9,982 nt of DNA. Source: Acetobacteraceae bacterium (lineage in GTDB: Bacteria; Pseudomonadota; Alphaproteobacteria; Acetobacterales; Acetobacteraceae). Location of the stretch: assembly GCA_030039695.1 (NCBI GenBank), contig JASHVB010000470.1, positions 1-9,982 of the forward strand. Reading direction: 5' to 3'. The notes beneath the pieces are model-generated. The model had not been told where the DNA came from. It saw only the letters and a program-made list of their open reading frames with translations, and did no database searches. The position numbers and the translations under genes were made by a program. Positions 1-9,982 of this stretch are shown in pieces. The first letter of the stretch is position 1, and every line of letters begins with the position of its first letter.

Positions 1-95
1 GCCCCGTCGATGACCATCCTCACGTCAAGCCGCAGCGCCGCTGCCTGTGTCTGAAAATGCCCGCGCCCCAGTTCCTTGATTCGCTCGAGCGGCAT
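1..95 (-). CDS. N-terminal fragment of third operon gene (possible aldehyde dehydrogenase)
   Basis: The first 31 codons of a gene that runs off the left edge. The ATG at 95-93 is preceded by AAGAGGA with a 5-nt spacer, a good ribosome binding site, and lies 11 bp after the stop of the Rieske fusion gene, so it is almost certainly cotranscribed. The visible protein starts MPLERIKELGRGHF and reaches LDVRMVIDG. A short leader followed by an 'M-[VLF]-I-[DN]-G' stretch is how many aldehyde dehydrogenases begin, and such an enzyme would fit downstream of an oxygenase that releases an aldehyde, as in choline or carnitine breakdown. That assignment is inference from nine residues and is weak. The existence of the gene is much better supported than its function. 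Confidence 0.6.
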   Translation of the reverse strand, partial: MPLERIKELGRGHFQTQAAALRLDVRMVIDG

Positions 96-106
96 CGGCG
101 TCCTCT

Positions 107-2308
107 TTACAACTCGAAGATAAGACCGGTTTCCTTCGCCGACGCCGCCGGAGCCGAGCAGCAGAGCAGCGCCTGCCCCTCCTCCAAGGCAGCTACCGGC
201 TCGTCCAGATACTCGACGTCGCCCTGTTTCATCATCGTCACGCAGGTTCCGCAGACGCCGGAACGACAGCCAAACGCCGGAGCAATCCCCAAGCCCTCGG
301 CGAATTCCAAGAGCGTACCATGCTCGGGCGTCCATTCGGCCTTGATGCCCGATTTGGCGAAGTAAACCGAGACTGGGGGTATGCGCTTCCGCACCGCGTG
401 GATTTCTGGCTTCAACCTCAGTGCACCGCCGAACGATTCCAAGTGGATGCGCTCCCGAGGTACGTCCGCCGCAATCAGCCCGTCATAGAGCGACTGCATG
501 AACGGGGTCGGCCCGCACAGATAGAAATCGCAATCCGCAAGTGGCAAAAGCTGCTTCAACAGGTCCGGGCAAACCCGCCCGACGCTGTCATGCGTTTCGC
601 CCAGCTGATCCGACGCCTCTGGAGCACTGTAGCAGACATGTACCGCGAGGTGTGGATGCTCAGCCGCAAGTGCGCGGACGTGGGGACCAAATGCATGTTC
701 GCGTCCGCTACGCGCCCCGTGAACGAAATGGACCTTACGCTGCAACCCTCCCGGTTGGATGACAAGATGGTTCAGCATAGCGATCATCGGCGTCACGCCG
801 ACCCCACCCGAGACGAGCGCCACCGACCGCTTGCTGGTTTCATCGAGCACGAACTTGCCACGGGGTGCCATCGCCTCCAGCCGGAACCCCGGCCCGGCGT
901 GGTCGTGCAGGAACGTCGAAACCGAGGCGTCTCTGCCTTCGCGCTTTATGGAAAGCCGGTAATGACTGCCGTCCGTCACGTCGGAGATCGTGTAGGTTCG
1001 CAGCATCGGCCGTTTCTCGCCGGGAATCATTATCCGGATCGGCAAGAATTGCCCCGGTAGGGCCGGTGCTAACGTCTCGTTGTCCATGCGGCGCAGGTAG
1101 AATGAGGAGATGACCTCGCTCTCCCGCTCCACCTTGATCACCTCGTAGGGGTGATACGTATTGCCGTCCTCCGCTGGCGCGGACGCCTGCTCGGCATCTG
1201 CCGCAAGAGCGCGCACCACCAGGCTCTGGAAATGGATCGCCAGGTGCTCGGCACTGGGGAGGAACCGCGCCTTCTCGGGCAAGCCTGAGCGGAGCCCGAT
1301 CTGCACCGAGTCGGTCAGCTCATCATCCTCCAGACCGACCTGGCGATTAAACGAGATCAGCTCTTCGGCAAATTCCCTGGTTACGCCGGGGGCGAAATAC
1401 TGCTCCGAAAATCCTTTAGCTCCGTTCGGCCCGTTCGGCAGCCACACATCCACCGAGAGGTTGGGGAAGCCTGGGTTGATACTGATCGTAACGTTCGGCC
1501 ATAACAAATGATACTGAGCCTGACCAATTTTGCCGCGCGCATCGTAAATCTTGATCTGGCTCTTGCCCTCCAGAGCCGAGTCCCGAACGTGACCGATCTG
1601 GCTCGAGAACCAGTCCTCATATGTAAGCACGTAATTTTCCGGCTTGACGTCAATCGCGGCGCTGAATCCAGGATGCGCGACCGCACAATGATAGCACTCG
1701 AGGTAGTTTTCGAGCATAGTCTTCCAGTTCGCAGAGGACTCCCACTCGTCCCGGCTGTAGAGTTCCAGGGAACCGAGATCGATTCCGCTCTCGCGAATAA
1801 GATCGAGCACGCGACCATAGTAGGCACTCGCGGGCTTGGTCCCCGGATCGAGATTGACGAAAACGAACGGGCCGACTGCCTCGACCTGAATTGGCAGCAG
1901 CGGATAATCTTCGACACGGAACTCGGGATCGCCTTCTGAACGCGGTGCACCCTTGAGATGCCCGTTCAGATCATAGACCCAGGCGTGATAGGCGCACTGG
2001 ATCATCCTGACGTTGCTGCGGCCCTTCAGCACCTGATGCCTCCGGTGGCGGCAGACATTGACGAACGCGGCAAGCCCGTTCGCATTGCGCACCACCGCAA
2101 CCGGCACGTTGCCAGAGACTCCGGTTATATAGTCCCCAATGTTCCGCAGTTCCCGCAATGATCCAATATATTGCCAGGTCCGGCGAAATATCTTCGCCAT
2201 CTCAAGCTCGGTGATCGCGGGATCGGTGTACCATGCGACCGGTAGCGACTCGCCACGCTGGACGGCCGCCAAGAGGCTCTCATAAGTTTCGGACGCTTGC
2301 AGGCTCAT
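107..2308 (-). CDS. Self-sufficient Rieske non-heme iron oxygenase fused to flavin/[2Fe-2S] reductase
   Basis: A 733-residue fusion of two proteins that are normally separate. Residues 1-370 are a Rieske oxygenase alpha subunit: the Rieske cluster motif is C86-x-H88...C105-x2-H108, and the catalytic iron site is E204, H207, H212 with D328 as likely third ligand. Glu rather than Asp at the bridging position is also seen in carnitine monooxygenase CntA, and the 'VQ-x-GL' region resembles the GbcA/CntA quaternary-amine group. A linker around 371-386 leads to a reductase: flavin motif RTYTIS (437-442), NAD(P)H motif GGVGVTP (501-507), CGP (598-600), and a plant-type [2Fe-2S] ferredoxin with C681, C686, C689 and probably C716. 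This is the GbcB/CntB/VanB order. One chain could thus carry electrons from NAD(P)H to the active site. The start at 2308 has GGAGAA upstream and overlaps the transporter stop (ATGA); an in-frame extension to 2527 lies inside the transporter and is rejected. The substrate is unknown. Confidence 0.93.
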   Translation of the reverse strand: MSLQASETYESLLAAVQRGESLPVAWYTDPAITELEMAKIFRRTWQYIGSLRELRNIGDYITGVSGNVPVAVVRNANGLAAFVNVCRHRRHQVLKGRSNVRMIQCAYHAWVYDLNGHLKGAPRSEGDPEFRVEDYPLLPIQVEAVGPFVFVNLDPGTKPASAYYGRVLDLIRESGIDLGSLELYSRDEWESSANWKTMLENYLECYHCAVAHPGFSAAIDVKPENYVLTYEDWFSSQIGHVRDSALEGKSQIKIYDARGKIGQAQYHLLWPNVTISINPGFPNLSVDVWLPNGPNGAKGFSEQYFAPGVTREFAEELISFNRQVGLEDDELTDSVQIGLRSGLPEKARFLPSAEHLAIHFQSLVVRALAADAEQASAPAEDGNTYHPYEVIKVERESEVISSFYLRRMDNETLAPALPGQFLPIRIMIPGEKRPMLRTYTISDVTDGSHYRLSIKREGRDASVSTFLHDHAGPGFRLEAMAPRGKFVLDETSKRSVALVSGGVGVTPMIAMLNHLVIQPGGLQRKVHFVHGARSGREHAFGPHVRALAAEHPHLAVHVCYSAPEASDQLGETHDSVGRVCPDLLKQLLPLADCDFYLCGPTPFMQSLYDGLIAADVPRERIHLESFGGALRLKPEIHAVRKRIPPVSVYFAKSGIKAEWTPEHGTLLEFAEGLGIAPAFGCRSGVCGTCVTMMKQGDVEYLDEPVAALEEGQALLCCSAPAASAKETGLIFEL

Positions 2309-3564
2309 GATGGTTCTCCAGGGGTTTCCTGCGCCGCCGCGCTCACCGTTTGTGCGTGAATGTCTGCCCTCACGATCAGTGGAATGCACACGAGCAAGAT
2401 CGCGCTGACACATAAGAGAATCTGACTTACGCCGAACCGGTCTGCCAAAGAAGCAGACAGTGCCGAGGCGCTCATCATCCCCACGGCGTAGGCGATGTTG
2501 TAGATCGCGTAGACCGCCCCATAACAAGCAAGGCCGCGCCGCTCGACCGCATCGCCAAGCTCCGCCGATGTCGGATTAAGCAAGAACGCAAAGGCCCCAT
2601 TCACCACGCAAAGCACGACGCCGGTCAGAATCAGGTTGGGCGTCAGACCGAGCAACGGGAGCGACGCCGCCATCACCAAAATCCCGGCAACGACTGTGCG
2701 CGTCACGCCAAATCGCTCGGTCGCGAAGCTGACCAAAGGGGTGACAAATCCGTACATGATCGTTGAGAGCGTGAACAACAGGCCGACCTCGGCTGCACCG
2801 GCCGCGAGCGTGAGTTCGAGATGGCGCGGGAGAACCGGCTCGACGAGGCCCCATGCCCCGGCGGCGATCGCCACCGTGAGCGCCGGCGCGGCCACCGAGC
2901 GGTCCGCGAGCAGCCCGGTGAGGCCCAGCCGACTGCCCTCATGCGCCTTGTCGGGAGGCAGCAGCAAGAAACGTAGGCTGGCATCGACCACCGCAAACCC
3001 GCACAGGACCGCAAAGGGCAGCGCATACCCCCCGTACTGATAAAGCACCCCGGACATCACCGGCCCAAGCACCGAGCCGCCGGTGCTGGCCATCAGCGTG
3101 AAGCCGATCATCCGTACCCGCTGCTCCGGACAGCGGGACGCGACGAGAGCGAGGCCGGCGGTCCAGGTCCCTGCCGAAGCTGCCCCCTGAAACAGCCGGC
3201 CGATCAAGGTGAGCGTAAACCCGTGACTGTGCCAAAGCAGCAGGATGCCGGGCGCGTTGAGCCCCGCCGCGAGCCACATGACCGTGCGGTAGCCGAACCG
3301 GTCGCCGATAATCCCAAAGGGCGGCGTGCTGAGCAGCACGCCAACGGAGTACGCGAAGTACAGAATCGAGAGGTGGCTGGCCGGTCCTCCGGCGGCGGGT
3401 GAGTAGGGGGTTAACGGAACGATCGCGCCATAGATGAGATAGTCGGTAAACACGGCGAACCCGACCGCAACCAGCGCCGTCCACTGCCCTGCTCGCAACC
3501 CGCCAACCTCCGCCCGCCCGCTGACGGAGCCAATGCCGGCGCGTCGCACGGCTCCCGAATGCAC
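2305..3564 (-). CDS. MFS transporter, 12-TM drug/metabolite type
   Basis: A 419-residue polytopic inner-membrane protein of the major facilitator superfamily. About twelve hydrophobic segments are visible, the first near residues 28-52 with an Asp (D41) inside it. Motif A, GIIGDRFGYR, sits at 84-93 in the loop between TM2 and TM3. A motif-C-like stretch, GGSVLGPVMSG (162-172), in TM5 is typical of proton-coupled antiporters of the DHA1/VMAT-like branch. The gene leads the operon; its stop overlaps the oxygenase start by 4 bp, so the two are translationally coupled and the transporter probably moves the oxygenase substrate or product. The start is GTG at 3564 with AGGAAGA tight against it. A TTG at 3498 preceded by GGAGG at 8 nt is a credible alternative that places the N-terminus just before TM1. 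Direction and substrate cannot be read from the sequence. Confidence 0.9.
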   Translation of the reverse strand: MHSGAVRRAGIGSVSGRAEVGGLRAGQWTALVAVGFAVFTDYLIYGAIVPLTPYSPAAGGPASHLSILYFAYSVGVLLSTPPFGIIGDRFGYRTVMWLAAGLNAPGILLLWHSHGFTLTLIGRLFQGAASAGTWTAGLALVASRCPEQRVRMIGFTLMASTGGSVLGPVMSGVLYQYGGYALPFAVLCGFAVVDASLRFLLLPPDKAHEGSRLGLTGLLADRSVAAPALTVAIAAGAWGLVEPVLPRHLELTLAAGAAEVGLLFTLSTIMYGFVTPLVSFATERFGVTRTVVAGILVMAASLPLLGLTPNLILTGVVLCVVNGAFAFLLNPTSAELGDAVERRGLACYGAVYAIYNIAYAVGMMSASALSASLADRFGVSQILLCVSAILLVCIPLIVRADIHAQTVSAAAQETPGEPS

Positions 3565-4054: not shown

Positions 4055-4205
4055 GTACTGCTCCTCAGACGTCTGGCGCAGGATCTTATTAGTGGCGAAC
4101 GTGAAATAGCACTTCTCCGCCAGCAGCTCCTCGTCGCGACGCGCACTGCGCCCGCCAGACTCCGGTTGCGCACCGCAGATCGCCTGGTCCTTGTCTGGGT
4201 TAGCC
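4055..4205 (+). pseudogene. Relic of a DDE integrase-type transposase, N-terminal part
   Basis: In one frame the translation reads LISGEREIALLRQQLLVA, then APARLRLRTADRLVLVWVS. This is the pattern of the N-terminal helical region of a common integrase-catalytic-core transposase group, where 'E-x-ALR-Q-QL' is followed by 'R-x-R-L-x-x-x-DRL-x-LVWL'. The match ends abruptly near 4205, and the expected 'RPET-x-x-RWHR' continuation and DDE core are missing. It is therefore a short, non-functional fragment if the resemblance is real. The identification rests on motif memory over about 50 residues, so confidence is limited. Confidence 0.35.
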
Positions 4206-4420
4206 CGTGCATCGCGCCGCACCGAAACCCAGCCGGCCGGCGACGGCCGGCCGCGTTCCAGCACCATCAAACCGGATCGGCTTCAGGAGCGTGGTGCTGC
4301 AAGGCAGTCCGAGGGGCGCCTTTCGGAGATGGCCCACTCATGTTCGAGCGCCCGTTTTGGGTCGGATTCGGTAACCGAGCTTGATCGCCCGCTCCTATTG
4401 CCGCGGTTGAGGCGATCCCC
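4206..4420. other. Gene-free stretch with a GC-rich hairpin
   Basis: No gene is recognisable between the transposase relic and the toxin-antitoxin operon. The stretch contains GCCGGCCG-GCGA-CGGCCGGC (4232-4251), an 8-bp perfect stem closed by a GNRA-type loop on the plus strand. No run of T follows, so it is not a clear intrinsic terminator. Confidence 0.4.
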
Positions 4421-4440
4421 GGGATATGCCAGACTATCCC
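4421..4440. promoter_or_regulatory. Candidate operator of the toxin-antitoxin operon
   Basis: GGGATA and TATCCC form a perfect 6-bp inverted repeat separated by 8 bp, ending exactly where the ribosome binding site of the antitoxin begins. AbrB/MazE-type antitoxins usually repress their own operon by binding palindromes at this position, so this is the likely autoregulatory site. A TTGAGG at 4407 could serve as a -35 box, but its spacing to a -10-like GACTAT is long (19 bp). Confidence 0.35.
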
Positions 4441-4457
4441 AGGAAGGAGTGCTAGCG

Positions 4458-4724
4458 ATGTCACATTCGGTGGTCGGGAAATGGGGCAAGAACCTCGCGA
4501 TCCGTATTCCAATGGAGGTCGCGCGCGCGGCTGGCCTTACAGATGGCGAGAAGGTCGAGGTTGAGACGCAGGCCGGCGACATCGTTGTTCGCCGCCAGGA
4601 GGCGCGTATCCGATCACGCCAAGATGCCGAGGCCGCCGCGGAGGAAATCATTGCCGAGAGCCGACGCCACTCCCTCGGCGGCGTTTCGATTCGGGTGCTG
4701 CTGGAAGACGGGCGCCGAGGGTGA
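4458..4724 (+). CDS. AbrB/MazE-family antitoxin
   Basis: An 88-residue protein with an N-terminal swapped-hairpin (SpoVT/AbrB, MazE-like) DNA-binding domain. The signature is GKWGKNLAIRIP (7-18), followed by 'AAGL-x-x-G-x-x-V-x-V' (24-35) and DIVVRR (41-46). The C-terminal half (about 50-88) is charged and helical and would wrap the toxin. It would neutralise the PIN-domain toxin next door and, with it, repress the operon. The ATG at 4458 is preceded by AGGAAGGAG with an 8-nt spacer, which decides the start; the in-frame extension back to 4191 has no such signal. The stop overlaps the toxin start by 4 bp (GTGA), so the two proteins are translationally coupled. Confidence 0.9.
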   Translation: MSHSVVGKWGKNLAIRIPMEVARAAGLTDGEKVEVETQAGDIVVRRQEARIRSRQDAEAAAEEIIAESRRHSLGGVSIRVLLEDGRRG

Positions 4725-5134
4725 CGCTCGTCCTCGATGCGTCGATGACCATCTCGTGGCTGTTCGACGATGAGCGAACCGAGGCCGCGCACACCGTGAT
4801 GCGCCGCGTTGTTGCGGAAGGAGCGATCGTCCCTTCCCTCTGGCGGTTGGAGGTCGCCAACGTCCTGCGCAACGCGGTGCGGCGGCGGCGCTGCAATGAA
4901 GCATTTGTCGATCGGTCACTGGCAAGGCTCGCTCGCCTTGCAATCAAGCGCGACGAAGAAACCGACGATCACGCCTGGGGATCGACACGGACGCTGGCTC
5001 AGAAGGAAAACCTGAGCCTCTACGACGCCGCTTACCTCGAGCTCGCTATTCGCAGGCGTATGTCGTTGGCTTCCTGCGATCAGGCGCTGCTTGCCGCGGC
5101 GGCCCGAAGGAAGGTGGAGGTCGTCGCAGCCTGA
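4721..5134 (+). CDS. VapC-type PIN-domain toxin (ribonuclease)
   Basis: A 137-residue PIN-domain protein of standard VapC length. The acidic residues that bind the catalytic metal are all present: D6 in VLDAS, E44 in WRLEVANVL, D102 in LYDAAYLELA and D120 in LASCDQALL. Family members cleave RNA, often tRNA or rRNA, and arrest growth when the antitoxin is lost. The start is the GTG at 4721 inside the antitoxin stop, a coupled arrangement that keeps toxin output tied to antitoxin translation. Pairing a PIN toxin with an AbrB/MazE-like antitoxin is common in VapBC systems. No inactivating change is visible, so the pair looks intact. It is probably a stabilising passenger of this accessory region rather than part of the catabolic operon. 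Confidence 0.92.
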   Translation: MTLVLDASMTISWLFDDERTEAAHTVMRRVVAEGAIVPSLWRLEVANVLRNAVRRRRCNEAFVDRSLARLARLAIKRDEETDDHAWGSTRTLAQKENLSLYDAAYLELAIRRRMSLASCDQALLAAAARRKVEVVAA

Positions 5135-5461: not shown

Positions 5462-6252
5462 ATGGTTGAACATGTAGCTCTCGTTACTGGAGCTGGGCGC
5501 GGGCTTGGGCGCGTTATGGCGCTTGTCCTGCTGCGTGCAGGCCATCGCGTCTTTTTGACTTCAACCGATCAAGCCTCGCTCCAGGACACGCAGCGCGCGA
5601 ACCATGCGGGTGAACGCGCCGCTGCCGCAACGGCAAATCTTGGTGATGAACACCGCCTCTCCGGGGTCGTCGACGCGGCAGAGAGGCTGTTCGGGCGCGT
5701 TGACATCCTCGTCAACGATGCTGGCGTCCCAACCCACTCTCGCACCAGCCCCTCGATCTCGCGCTCAGCCGAATCCGACGGATGTTCGAGATCAATACCT
5801 TCGCTCCAATCAGGCTCACCCAACTCGTTGCACCTTTCATGATTCAACGTGGTTGGGGAAGAATTGTCGTCATCAGCACCAGTTTGGACACAATGCTGGG
5901 TCCCGGTTACGCCGCATATGGGATGACCAAGGCGTCGGCGGAGGTATTTGTCGCGGGCTTAGCGGCATCGCTGCGCGACACTGGCGTAACGGCGAATGTG
6001 CTGCTGCCAGGTGGAGCGGTTGCGACACGCATGGCTGATCCTGCTGGCACAAGGAAGGGCTTGCTTCCACCCGACATTATGGCCGCGCCCATGGTGTGGC
6101 TGGCATCTGATTCGTCCAACCACGTTACAGGCCATCGGTTTATCGCAGCACGGTGGAATCCCGCTCTTTCTGACGACCAGGCGGCTCAGGCGGCCGGAGC
6201 GCTTGCCGCCTGGGGCGGTCACCGCGACACCAGCATAAGGCCATCGGCATAA
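5462..6252 (+). pseudogene. Short-chain dehydrogenase/reductase, broken by a one-base frameshift
   Basis: An NAD(P)-dependent oxidoreductase of the SDR family, about 263 residues if repaired. The 5' part encodes the Rossmann start (VTGAGRGLG, residues 8-16) and ILVNDAG, where the family usually has NNAG. The frame is then lost: from about 5744 the protein continues one frame away as QPLDLALSRIRRMFEINTF, through ISTS and the catalytic Y-x3-K (YGMTK, 5917-5931), to a normal C-terminus at 6252. Restoring one base between 5743 and 5744 (CGC-AC to CGC-GAC) gives a continuous, family-like sequence. As it stands, the first frame yields a 126-residue product lacking the catalytic half. A real mutation and a sequencing error are both possible; the undamaged downstream half suggests the change is recent. 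The ribosome binding site is weak (GAGCAAGA). The substrate is unknown. Confidence 0.88.
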
Positions 6253-6666: not shown

Positions 6667-7338
6667 TCACCGCATCGCAGAGGTTGCACCGGACACACCG
6701 AATATCCGAATCGTCCGATGAAGGCCGTTGGCGTAGCGCAGGGACATACCGTCCAGCATCGGCATGGTAGTCTCGATATCCTGCCAGATCTTCTGAATTC
6801 GCAACGTTGCCCGAAACCCGAAGTCCGCCATCGAGATGATAAACGCCCCGGCGGGGACCATCGCGCGCAACCGGGTCAGCACCGCCATCGGGTCGCGGAA
6901 TAAGTACAGCACCTCGTTGAGGACAACGAGGTCGAACTGGTCCTGCAACGCAAGCGTTTCTGCGTCAGCCACCATGAAGCGGGTTCGGTTGTCGTTACGG
7001 GACGCCATCCGTTCGATCGCCGTTGGGGATATGTCGACGCCGACATATTGCCGATACCCGGCGCGGGCGAGCAGAGCGTGCAGCACGCCCTCACCGCAGC
7101 CGACATCGAGAATCGCCGCGTCCGAACCGAAGCGCGTGTGGTACGCGGCGATGATATAATTGTGCACCCGCTCGTCGTCGCCCTTCAACCAGTCCCATCC
7201 ACCGCTGGCGTATTCGCGCTCCCAACGCGCCTGATCGGAATACAACGCCGCCGACGGCCCGAGAATCCGCAGCAGGCCATCGCGCAACGGCGGACATCCG
7301 GAACTGACACTCAGGCACGCGTTCTTCAATAGGCTCAC
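6667..7338 (-). CDS. Class I SAM-dependent methyltransferase
   Basis: A 223-residue soluble methyltransferase. The SAM-binding core is clear: motif I ILDVGCGEG (76-84), the acidic end of strand 2 in VGVDIS (99-104), an ADAE acidic loop (124-127) and FDLVVLNEVLYL (135-146). A short N-terminal region (about 30-65) containing 'W-x-REYASG-x-WDWL' resembles methyltransferases found in polysaccharide or small-molecule gene clusters, but the acceptor cannot be told. The start is a GTG at 7338 with a perfect GGAGG six bases upstream. A longer in-frame reading back to 7665 crosses transposase debris and is rejected. The gene begins 13 bp after the truncated tail of an IS3-type transposase, so its original upstream neighbour was probably lost. 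The last 25 or so residues look ordinary rather than conserved, and C-terminal trimming is possible. Confidence 0.85.
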   Translation of the reverse strand: MSLLKNACLSVSSGCPPLRDGLLRILGPSAALYSDQARWEREYASGGWDWLKGDDERVHNYIIAAYHTRFGSDAAILDVGCGEGVLHALLARAGYRQYVGVDISPTAIERMASRNDNRTRFMVADAETLALQDQFDLVVLNEVLYLFRDPMAVLTRLRAMVPAGAFIISMADFGFRATLRIQKIWQDIETTMPMLDGMSLRYANGLHRTIRIFGVSGATSAMR

Positions 7339-7351
7339 TCGCAACCTCCAA

Positions 7352-7532
7352 TCACGCCGGCCGCTCGATGAACGTATTGTCCGTCTACCGACCACGCCTG
7401 TCCACCGCGATCCGGATCCCCGCCGCCGCCAGCGTGCGGGTGAAGGCCGCGCTGGTGAACTGCGATCCCTGATCGGTATTGAAAACCGCGAGAGGGTCGA
7501 ACCGCGCCGATGCCTCTTCCAGCGCCGAGACG
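7352..7532 (-). pseudogene. IS3-family transposase (OrfB) remnant
   Basis: A fragment of the integrase core of an IS3-type transposase. It reads SALEEASARFD, then FNTDQGSQFTSAAF, the second catalytic Asp region of the DDE triad, then LAAAGIRIAVDRRGR. An in-frame TAG (7387-7385) stands where the family has Trp. The frame continues as TDNTFIER and then departs into PA and a TGA at 7352; the family would continue ERLWRS with about 100 more residues including the catalytic Glu. The element is therefore dead: its 3' part is deleted and its 5' part is not recognisable upstream. The methyltransferase ribosome binding site begins immediately beyond the broken end. Confidence 0.85.
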
Positions 7533-8462
7533 CGCCGCGCAGCACACACCGCATCAATCCCTCGGTGATCGCCCATCTGTCCATGTTGGCGCCGTTCGGG
7601 CGGCGCGGGACGAACCCGCCAATTGTGTCGACGGCGTCGCGGCGGGCGCACAGGCAGCGTCGCAAGCGCTCGATGGTGGCCTGCTAAACCGACGCCAGAC
7701 GCGGGCTGTTGGCAAGAAGCGCGCTGCGGCGAGGTACCAGTCACAGGGTGCACCTCGGCCCCGCCCATGACCACCTCACCAAAATCAGCGGCGATCGATA
7801 GCCGCCGTCGCTCACCGGCATCGGCTCGCACCGGTCGCCCGGGACTCCAGGCGCTGAGGCTCGTGCCTGCGTTGAACGGATCGGCGTAAACACTCCCTCC
7901 GCCTCAATCCCACAGATGGATTGATTGTCCTGAATTGCGAGGCTCAGCCCGCGCAGACGCAGCCGCACCCACGCGCCGTGTGTCGCTCGCGGTGGTTCTC
8001 GGTGGGCCGTAGTGGCAGCGTGCTCGCCGACTTCCCAGCCGCGCTGCGAGAGAAAGCACGTTCCGGCTTCGATAGGCGAGGCCTCCAATTCGGTGGCGAG
8101 TGTGTCATTGAAGCGCACCTGAGGCGAGCCGTAACGCCGCACCAGGCCTTTCGGTCCTTGGCCGGCGTGAGCATCCGCTTACGGCATCGGTCGAACGGTC
8201 GCCCCGTGGCGGTGATGGGTCGATTCCGGACATTCGCAACGGGCGCGAGATTTCTCTTTGGTCGGCTCCTAGGGATTTCGATCGTGGAGCAGGTTCGCAG
8301 TAACATCGCGATCCAAACCTTGTAGGCCTGTCATGTTGCCGTTTGGACTTCCTACCAAGAGTCAACGACAAAAAGGACGGCGGGGCGGAAACCCCGCGCC
8401 GGGTTTTGGCAGTGAAAAATTGGGCACGTTGCCCCGGTTATCCGATCGTTTATTGTGCTTGC
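7533..8462. other. Decayed gene-poor region
   Basis: About 930 bp with no gene I can support. Open frames exist on both strands (for example 7921-8325 plus and 8142-7741 minus) but show no recognisable domain or start signal. The position next to an IS3 remnant and IS110 genes suggests further unrecognised insertion-sequence debris. A GCGGGG/CCCCGC hairpin (8380-8397) is followed by GCCGGGTTTT on the plus strand, at best a weak terminator. Confidence 0.4.
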
Positions 8463-8607: not shown

Positions 8608-9438
8608 CTACTTGGTGTGGGCAAAGTTCGGATCAAACGGCGTTTGTCGCTGCAGAAGCACACACGCCAGGGCAAGCAATCTGTCCGCAACACCGCGGAG
8701 GGCGCGGCCGTGTGAGTGGCCACGACCGCGGAGCGCCACATACCTGGCCCGACACTTTGGATCGTGCTGGGTGGCAACACGGGCCCAGTGATAGACCACG
8801 TTGCGCAAACGGACGTGTGCGGCGTAGCGCATGATGACGATGTGCGACTTGCCGCTGCGTTTGGTGACCGGCGCAGCGCCACACAGCGTTCGCAGTGCCG
8901 GATAATCCCGCCGGCTCAGCGGACCGGAGCCCTCGCACAGCAGGGTCGCGAGATTGATCCGGCCGATACCGGGCATCGATCTGAGTATCATGACGTCCTG
9001 TCGTTGAAGACCCTCTCCCGAGTCAGCATCGGTCTCGCCGATCGTCGCGGACAGCGCATCAAGCTTGGCCTCAGCCTGCCGCAGTTCGCGGTTGATGACA
9101 CGCAACCGGGTAAACAGCGAACGCAGGTGAACGCTGGCTGCCTCGGCCACGCCCCTGCCAACTTTGATGGCAGGCTCTCGCAAGATGCCAAGCACGGTGT
9201 CGGGGTCGATGCGGCGGATGCGGTGTTGCTCGAGCAATTTCTCGACCGGCGCGGAGCGCAGCCGGCGTGCCTTGGCCGGCGTGGGTGCGAGATCCCACAG
9301 TTCGAGGACCCAGAGCGCCGCCACGTCGTCGTCGACGATCTTCAACATCTGCGGAATATGTTGTCGATAACATATTCCGCAGATGCCGACGAGTGCCGAA
9401 ACCCTCGTTTCCCATTGCTGCTTGGCCGAGCTGTTCAT
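8608..9438 (-). pseudogene. N-terminally truncated IS110-family transposase (chimeric 5' end)
   Basis: The C-terminal two-thirds of an IS110 transposase. From about 9348 inward it reads as family sequence: DLAPTPAKARRLR, a helical linker, RSMPGIGRINLATLL (helix-hairpin-helix), and the Transposase_20 region CGAAPVTKRSGKS, whose serine is the likely catalytic nucleophile, ending TPFDPNFAHTK. The N-terminal RuvC-like DEDD domain of about 120-150 residues is missing, so the protein should be inactive. The reading frame can start at an ATG (9438-9436) that overlaps the stop of the neighbouring IS110 gene as ATGA, giving a 276-residue chimera whose first 30 residues are not transposase-like. The frame also stays open to 9618, which is a shadow of the neighbouring gene. 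The true break is probably at the inverted repeat 9346-9385. Confidence 0.8.
9346..9385. repeat. Perfect 17-bp inverted repeat at the IS110 junction
   Basis: Left arm 9346-9362 and right arm 9369-9385 are exact reverse complements around a 6-bp centre, GTCGAT. The right arm reads AACATATTCCGCAGATG. It marks the boundary between family-like sequence of the truncated IS110 gene and the short tail of the second IS110 element. No U-tract follows on either strand. Confidence 0.95.
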
Positions 9439-9982
9439 TGCGCAGGGCGCAGGACAACCCCGTCCGGCACCTCGCCACCGGTGACGAACCGCCAGAGTGC
9501 GATGAGGAGCTTGCGTGCCAGTGCCACGATCAATGTCTTTCGCCCCTTGCCAGAGATCGCACGCGCCTCGAACCACTGCGTCAGGGCGCTTTGCTTTTGG
9601 TGCATAAGAAAGCGCCACGCCAATTGAATCATGCCGCGGCGGACCCGCGCGCTGCCTGCCTTGGACAGGCCCTTTTCTCGGCGTCGAGCACCACTCTCGT
9701 CGGGTGAGCCGGTAAGGCCGGCATAGCGCGCGACTGCTCGTTGATCGCGTAGTTCACGTGAGAAAACTTCGTGCACGAGCATATCCGCAGTTTCCACGCT
9801 AATGCTGAGGACGCGTTGCAGATGCAATACCTTGGCATTTGCGCGATTCTCTGGTGCCTGCTCGAGTTCTTTCTTCCGTGCACTTTCAATCTGGTCGATT
9901 TGCCCCCTGAGGAAGCGGTGATGTTCCATATCGCGTCGAAGCTCAGTCAACGTATGAGGCGGAATGACTTCACCTTCAGGTG
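9435..9982 (-). CDS. IS110-family transposase, C-terminal part (5' end outside window)
   Basis: The frame is open from the right edge to a TGA at 9437-9435, giving about 181 visible residues of a protein that begins outside the window. The visible part starts PEGEVIPPHTLTELRRDMEH, a coiled linker, and continues with the Transposase_20 domain: ETADMLVHEV, YAGLTGSPDESG (containing the family's conserved serine), KGLSKAGSARVRRGMIQLAW and VALARKLLIALWR, ending VPDGVVLRPAQ. This domain, with the N-terminal DEDD domain, catalyses RNA-guided DNA recombination in active IS110 elements. It belongs to a different subgroup from the neighbouring truncated gene. No damage is visible here, so the element may be intact. 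The 50 bp after its stop, up to the inverted repeat, would be its 3' non-coding end. Confidence 0.9.
   Translation of the reverse strand, partial: PEGEVIPPHTLTELRRDMEHHRFLRGQIDQIESARKKELEQAPENRANAKVLHLQRVLSISVETADMLVHEVFSRELRDQRAVARYAGLTGSPDESGARRREKGLSKAGSARVRRGMIQLAWRFLMHQKQSALTQWFEARAISGKGRKTLIVALARKLLIALWRFVTGGEVPDGVVLRPAQ

Follow-up and report, generated by a model that had tools for sequence, protein, structure and literature searches.

The window, that is, the whole stretch of 9,982 nucleotides analysed here, carries a frame in which a Rieske oxygenase is followed by a reductase. It raises the question of whether this is a natural oxygenase with a built-in electron supply or two neighbouring genes joined by error. 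In the sections concerned, an August 2025 Biochemistry review (PMC12445004) describes several natural self-sufficient P450s and no identified self-sufficient Rieske oxygenase, and looks forward to the construction or discovery of such enzymes. Similarly, the available portion of a 2022 study of an E. coli CntA-type pair (PMC9508527) reports that the two proteins could not be captured as a complex and describes the interaction of reductase and oxygenase as insufficiently understood.

Oxygenase and reductase domains share one reading frame

A single open reading frame on the minus strand (2308 to 107, ATG to TAA) encodes a 733-aa Rieske oxygenase-reductase, as seen from the ORF, Pfam, protein matches and alignment; a GGAG stretch precedes its ATG. 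PF00355, PF00848, PF00175 and PF00111 all scored over their curated cut-offs in a Pfam scan. From the N-terminus, and all on the minus strand, Pfam and alignment placed a Rieske [2Fe-2S] domain (PF00355, residues 44-125, 1934..2179) with C86, H88, C105 and H108, and the catalytic mononuclear iron domain (PF00848, residues 183-369, 1202..1762) with Y202, E204, C205, H207, C208, H212 and D328. A linker of 16 residues (370-385, 1154..1201), delimited by alignment and by low model confidence, leads to a flavin-binding part (residues 386-497, 818..1153) carrying R437-T-Y/F-T/S, to an NAD(P)-binding domain (PF00175, residues 498-606, 491..817) and finally to a plant-type ferredoxin domain (PF00111, residues 661-720, 149..328) with C681, C686, C689 and C716. 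Residues 386-497 did not reach PF00970 in the Pfam scan, a family matched in a few relatives; they are covered by flavohaemoprotein matches, from which the boundary of this part was taken and by similarity to which its flavin-binding character was judged.

In an alignment of 120 chains (the window protein and 119 relatives), the Rieske ligands C86/H88/C105/H108, the mononuclear iron ligands H207/H212/D328, the bridging E204 and the ferredoxin (Fer2) cysteines C681/C686/C689/C716 were identical throughout (120/120 in each case). The CxH...CxxH motif and the 2-His-1-carboxylate site expected of a Rieske non-haem iron oxygenase are both present, and oxygenase, flavin, NAD(P)H and ferredoxin domains all lie within one chain, as in self-sufficient oxygenases. 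The sequence-only reading had proposed a complete oxygenase with both iron sites conserved, joined by a short linker to a complete flavin-NAD(P)H-[2Fe-2S] reductase. Domain matches and invariant ligands bear out both halves, and the linker indeed lies within one open frame. An AlphaFold2 model of the chain reached a mean pLDDT of 84 and a pTM of 0.60, with linker residues 372-379 at pLDDT <50; the mutual placement of the two halves in this model is not confident at such a pTM.

The join is conserved among relatives

A search over 5.8 billion proteins, in which the 7997 candidates sharing most words were scored, returned 909 matches to the window protein at E <= 0.001, 120 of them listed. Among the matches listed, 119/120 carry all four Pfam domains in one chain, with 57-99% identity and 96-100% query coverage; the exception, P0090, is a 568-aa piece without a Rieske match. 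Full-length two-domain relatives, for which the sequence-only reading had proposed to search, thus exist, and its reservation that the homologues might always be separate genes does not hold. By source names, members occur in the cultured Acidisoma cellulosilyticum (Acetobacterales; P0012, 66% identical), Stellaceae, Acidobacteriaceae and Candidatus Baltobacteraceae. The stretch equivalent to the linker measures 12-41 residues across the 120 chains.

The full fusion is rare among the whole genomes searched and was found in G001, G002 and G1085, in the last on a 5.45-Mb contig. It occurred in 1/76 genomes of G002's order (oxygenase half only in 34 more), 1/395 of G001's order, 0/95 of G474's order, 1/385 of G002's class and 1/399 of G474's class; these searches used E limits of 1e-90 to 1e-120, and three of them scored the two best candidates per genome. 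Two MAG contigs, L001 and L002, carry it as well. Among viral contigs, 27 stretches matched a pattern, none of them a relative. On plasmids, 1746 records matched, 22 with one place covering >=80% and none at >=60% identity. No annotated single-chain fusion was present in the 7 plasmid matches examined (H3, H12, H16, H18, H21, H23, H31); H3 and H18 have no annotation at the locus and their two halves lie in different frames.

A join arising from an assembly error, a frameshift or a chance read-through of two neighbouring genes is conceivable in principle, the Cereibacter GbcA and GbcB genes being separate, in frame and parted by one stop. Nothing at the window locus favours such an accident, and the joined state of all listed relatives except P0090, the conserved junction and the occurrence of the fusion on the 5.45-Mb contig speak against it. 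We consequently rejected an assembly artefact, whose probability we regard as practically nil; this explanation is already refuted. Separate homologues do not revive it, since they probably descend from joined ancestors, as discussed below.

The oxygenase half carries a group Va signature

CntA was the best solved match of the oxygenase half both by sequence (8e-41) and by fold (ranks 1-13 in a search with the predicted model), at an identity of only about 26-29%. Tyr202, Glu204, Cys205 and His207 align with CntA Tyr203, Glu205, Cys206 and His208, and Cys208, His212 and Asp328 with CntA Cys209, His213 and Asp323, the CntA numbers being read by eye from the alignment as chain numbers less 20. 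Position 202 is occupied by Y in 101/120 and by F in 19/120 aligned chains, and the Cys pair C205/C208 is invariant (120/120). Unlike CntA, which has Tyr225, the window protein carries Asn225 at the aligned position.

According to the relevant passages of PMC7948474, Tyr or Phe at CntA position 203 marks group Va (carnitine, choline, benzalkonium) and Asn at the same position group Vb (glycine betaine, stachydrine); PMC10952381, in the part that deals with it, attributes the Cys pair to some enzymes of group V. The window protein has the Cys-X-X-Cys by the iron site and the bridging Glu of group V, together with the Tyr/Phe of group Va (CntA, choline monooxygenases, OxyBAC). The GbcA NCBIfam cut-off was not passed (132.6 vs 670 bits). 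Tyr/Phe202, Glu204 and Cys205/Cys208 give the oxygenase the group Va signature of quaternary-ammonium enzymes, and the family probably acts in the breakdown of quaternary ammonium compounds.

The reductase half is related to PNPOx-joined and flavohaemoprotein modules

The best NCBIfam model of the reductase half was flavohaemoprotein (243 bits, under the curated cut-off), which was also its best solved match; the GbcB cut-off was not passed (94.6 vs 500 bits). Flavohaemoprotein matches end at residue 630, and Hmp is not known to have a ferredoxin domain. The FAD/NAD part of Hmp-like proteins is 37-42% identical to the window reductase and E. coli YeaX 25%. No globin match was found in the window protein, none of its four Pfam families being globin; the UniRef name of one relative, P0012, begins 'nitric oxide dioxyge'.

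Other proteins combine the same reductase module (44-58% identical) with a PNPOx-like domain, as confirmed by Pfam for L041-L044 and L046 and judged by eye for L100-L105 and L107. In the reductase tree, the halves belonging to Rieske fusions come together in a single clade (34/52 tree rows, support 96/99.7) nested among PNPOx-joined reductases; the window reductase clusters with PNPOx-joined and Hmp modules, outside the GbcB clade and not with YeaX. We also observed this FAD-NAD-Fer2 module behind a MOSC-like N-terminal domain in L106 (judged by eye) and, in L108, in a chain cut at a contig end. From its various partners, the module looks portable.

It had been suggested from sequence that the two halves together match the GbcA/GbcB or CntA/CntB pair. 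This stands for the CntA-like front and fails for the reductase, both in the scores (243 bits for flavohaemoprotein vs 95 for GbcB) and in the tree. Accordingly, the reductase tree led us to reject, for the window family, a mere fusion of adjacent CntA/CntB or GbcA/GbcB genes.

Most likely one join, followed by repeated loss of the reductase

Pairwise identities of the oxygenase and reductase halves correlate at 0.91 over 7140 pairs. Since the halves co-diverge and the reductase halves form a single clade, the fusion appears to have been inherited as a unit; this pattern fits a single joining event in the window family followed by common descent.

A scan of genome contigs gave 58 loci: 2 full fusions (L001, L002), 40 oxygenase-only, 13 reductase-only and 3 distant oxygenases. 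The oxygenase-only loci are 57-67% identical over the oxygenase half and include four contig-end pieces (L037, L040, L045, L047). In L038 the oxygenase is split over two frames, one piece being 73% identical. No reductase was detected near the oxygenase-only loci in the 40 fetched stretches (up to 8 kb each side, less at contig ends; matches >=100 residues, E <= 1e-10).

In the oxygenase tree, stand-alone enzymes branch from within the fusions in four separate positions: Reyranella with its relatives, Obscuribacterales with theirs, L003 (an acidobacterial MAG contig) and L009 (a verrucomicrobial one). A single clade of stand-alones was rejected (p-AU 5.8e-7) in a test of 58/76 tree rows that left out 5 distant outgroups, 12 further stand-alones and P0002. 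The C-terminal tails of L003 and L009 resemble fusion linkers, with matches that none of 1000 shuffles each equalled, and the sequence beyond these tails shows no significant trace of a reductase (best E 2.1). In the outgroup-rooted oxygenase tree the outgroups sit on very long branches and the base is unresolved. Because of this poorly resolved root, it is the linker remnants and the reductase tree that carry the direction of change, with the join preceding the losses. The four placements and the two linker tails suggest that the fusion is probably old and that its reductase was lost repeatedly. Most likely, then, the joined form came first and lost its reductase several times, and the stand-alones of Reyranella, Obscuribacterales and others would be later losses, the reverse of the usual story. 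Separately, we noted that the Obscuribacterales genomes G004 and G006, which carry a stand-alone oxygenase, have only one PF00175 gene each.

A second family joins GbcA and GbcB

With the Cereibacter GbcA-GbcB pair read as one chain, a search gave 2683 matches, 120 of them listed. Among those listed, at least 29 unite oxygenase and reductase domains in one chain of 772-890 aa (P0122-P0150 except P0138, plus P0165), including chains from Cocleimonas flava (P0147, 873 aa, Thiotrichales) and a Granulosicoccaceae MAG. The Vb motif (Asn201, Glu203 of P0147, and the Cys pair) and the Rieske, two-His and Fer2 ligands are invariant in 29/29.

The 13 of these fusions placed in trees group with GbcA (100/98) and with GbcB (100/100), apart from the window family, indicating that they arose separately; the two families part on a 100/98 branch for the oxygenases and on a 98/99 branch for the reductases. 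A single origin, tested as a clade of all fusions, was rejected with p-AU of 5.5e-117 and 1.5e-7, values driven also by unjoined rows nested inside each family and obtained with long branches present. In both trees P0122 clusters with the Cereibacter pair, whose genes are unjoined, and more than one joining within the GbcA-GbcB family is therefore possible. It thus appears quite likely that natural self-sufficient Rieske oxygenases arose at least twice in the quaternary-ammonium group, from a group Va oxygenase with a PNPOx/flavohaemoprotein-type reductase (join first) and, once or more, from GbcA with GbcB.

Six further proteins of 636-674 aa (P0218, P0234, P0227, P0230, P0236, P0239) have a Rieske domain and a GbcB-like reductase with no PF00848 match. 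In P0218 and P0234 the two-histidine iron motif was not seen in the middle part of the sequences; the other four are known from domain lists only. Proteins of the P0218/P0234 type are possibly fused oxygenases with a decayed catalytic domain.

Gene neighbourhood

Upstream of the fusion lies an MFS transporter gene (2305..3564, minus strand), recognised by Pfam and solved-structure matches, whose stop overlaps the fusion's ATG (ATGA). Eleven bases past the fusion's stop starts an aldehyde dehydrogenase (ALDH) gene (1..95, minus strand), which runs out of the window after 31 codons. These codons align with the ALDH N-termini of L001 and L110, and 0/2000 shuffles were as good in each case. The order MFS - fusion - ALDH is found in the window, in L001 and in L110 (G1085), the three loci on which the full operon rests. 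In L002 the tail of the same MFS stands in front of the fusion, with no ALDH beside it. Among 40 loci compared (window, L001-L039), L001 alone showed an ALDH resembling the L110 one, which speaks against a fixed three-gene unit; the 31 codons of the window were below the ORF size used. The same MFS directly precedes the stand-alone oxygenase in L003 and L036 and stands elsewhere in the locus in L006, L007, L008, L011, L023, L031 and L038.

The best solved matches of the MFS protein were VMAT2, VMAT1 and VAChT (6.6e-22 to 2.8e-14), with a weaker match to NorA (1.7e-6). The L110 ALDH is nearest to KauB, PuuC and betaine aldehyde dehydrogenases, below curated cut-offs; plasmid records H1 and H6 show an annotated succinate-semialdehyde dehydrogenase beside cntA and cntB. 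This context suggests an operon for the uptake or movement of a quaternary ammonium compound, its oxidation to an aldehyde and oxidation of that aldehyde, with substrate, products and direction of transport all inferred.

Another set of genes recurs beside the stand-alone oxygenase in Obscuribacterales-type loci (L006, L007, L008, L010, L011, L014, L023, L024, L025, L031, L038): lyxose isomerase-like, DeoC-like aldolase, HAD hydrolase, MFS and flavin amine oxidase. One representative of each was scanned and not every gene is in every locus; the set is perhaps an undescribed pathway.

Elsewhere in the window, a MazE-type antitoxin domain gene and an overlapping PIN-domain gene form a VapBC-like pair (4191-5134, plus strand), and a short-chain dehydrogenase split over two overlapping frames of 126 and 156 aa (5462-6252, plus strand) is probably a frameshifted gene. 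A methyltransferase-like protein (6667-7665, minus strand) matches Methyltransf_11 and others at residues about 176-318, its N-terminal part of about 160 residues being unmatched in profile scans. Two overlapping ORFs match an IS110-type transposase (8608-9950, minus strand), near a 24-nt inverted repeat at 8462-8485/8514-8537.

Proposed mechanism and alternatives

Building on the observed single chain, conserved ligands, family, operon order and tree history, we favour, with a probability of roughly 0.7, a natural self-sufficient group Va Rieske monooxygenase with electron supply within the chain, acting in an MFS/ALDH quaternary-ammonium route. We infer the bound cofactors, the electron path, a trimer, the substrate class and the direction of transport as follows. 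NAD(P)H would reduce the bound flavin, from which electrons would pass to the C-terminal plant-type cluster and then, bridged by the flexible linker, to a Rieske cluster. For CntB/CntA, EPR supports the sequence flavin - ferredoxin - Rieske, as given in the pertinent sections of PMC7948474; this sequence is assumed for the window fusion, as is the final transfer to iron. The same sections put 44 A between Rieske centre and iron within a CntA subunit, so the last step probably takes place between subunits, and electrons would reach the mononuclear iron across the subunit border via Glu204. There O2 would be activated to attack the substrate. A quaternary ammonium compound or similar amine is the probable candidate, and the VMAT/VAChT-like MFS protein would import it or otherwise transport it. 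Either C-N cleavage of the CntA type or an oxidation like that of choline would turn this substrate into an aldehyde, to be oxidised by the downstream KauB/PuuC/betaine-aldehyde-dehydrogenase-like enzyme.

With the join real and the oxygenase self-sufficient, the substrate could instead be a tertiary amine, an amino sugar or another cation. The low identity to CntA leaves room for this, as do genes for flavin amine oxidases (PF01593) in the surroundings of some relatives (L002 and the Obscuribacterales cluster) and the sugar-type genes of that cluster. We nevertheless consider it unlikely, as the aromatic residue 202, the Cys pair and the bridging Glu of group Va are kept in all 120 chains and the operon pairs a VMAT/VAChT-like transporter with a betaine-aldehyde-like ALDH. 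Another view takes the reductase as a general NAD(P)H-driven module that does not mainly feed its own oxygenase, the Rieske cluster being reduced by another partner. The module is indeed joined to PNPOx-like domains and, by eye, to another N-terminal domain in L106, and the oxygenases persisting in Reyranella and Obscuribacterales evidently manage with a reductase from elsewhere. The invariant Fer2 cysteines, the co-divergence of the halves and the EPR-supported electron order in CntB/CntA argue against this view and make it highly improbable.

Comparison with known systems

The kind of enzyme is known; as far as could be checked, the one-chain architecture is new in the Rieske superfamily. 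We found no report of a natural self-sufficient Rieske oxygenase in the open-access PMC literature, subscription papers and bioRxiv being mostly outside this scope. LumU, which came up in this literature, is a P450 according to the relevant part of PMC12746152. A natural single chain, with oxygenase and reductase fixed at 1:1, would serve as a biocatalyst that does not have to find its partner, and would allow the contact between reductase and oxygenase to be observed. Moreover, the apparent repeated loss of the reductase provides joined oxygenases and unjoined counterparts, 57-67% identical, with which to ask what advantage the join confers.

CntA/CntB (YeaW/YeaX) shares with the fusion the oxygenase fold, the Rieske and iron ligands, the bridging Glu, the Cys pair and the aromatic 203-type residue. 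Unlike the fusion, it consists of two proteins, whose association in E. coli is transient or weak in the account given in PMC9508527; CntB carries FMN, as stated in PMC7948474, and the window reductase is not CntB-type. GbcA/GbcB similarly combines a group V oxygenase with a flavin-NAD-Fer2 reductase and is encoded by neighbouring genes. It differs from the fusion in being group Vb (Asn in place of Tyr/Phe202), in its separate proteins and in its reductase clade. Hmp and PNPOx-FAD-NAD-Fer2 proteins share the reductase module (up to 58% identical when PNPOx-joined), joined there to a globin or a PNPOx-like domain instead of an oxygenase. Engineered Rieske oxygenase fusions have reportedly been made by Runda et al. 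in 2024, a work cited in PMC12445004. In artificial fusions as presented in the relevant section of PMC12445004, the redox partner is covalently linked, as here, by engineering, unlike the window fusion. Finally, CYP116B46 (6LAA) has an oxygenase, a flavin-NAD(P)H reductase and a C-terminal [2Fe-2S] domain in one chain, and the fusion's reductase half aligns with 6LAA residues 465-771. Its oxygenase is a haem-thiolate P450 and not a Rieske non-haem iron enzyme, so that only the reductase half matches. The proposal that the window protein is the Rieske counterpart of the self-sufficient P450s is thus supported at the level of architecture.
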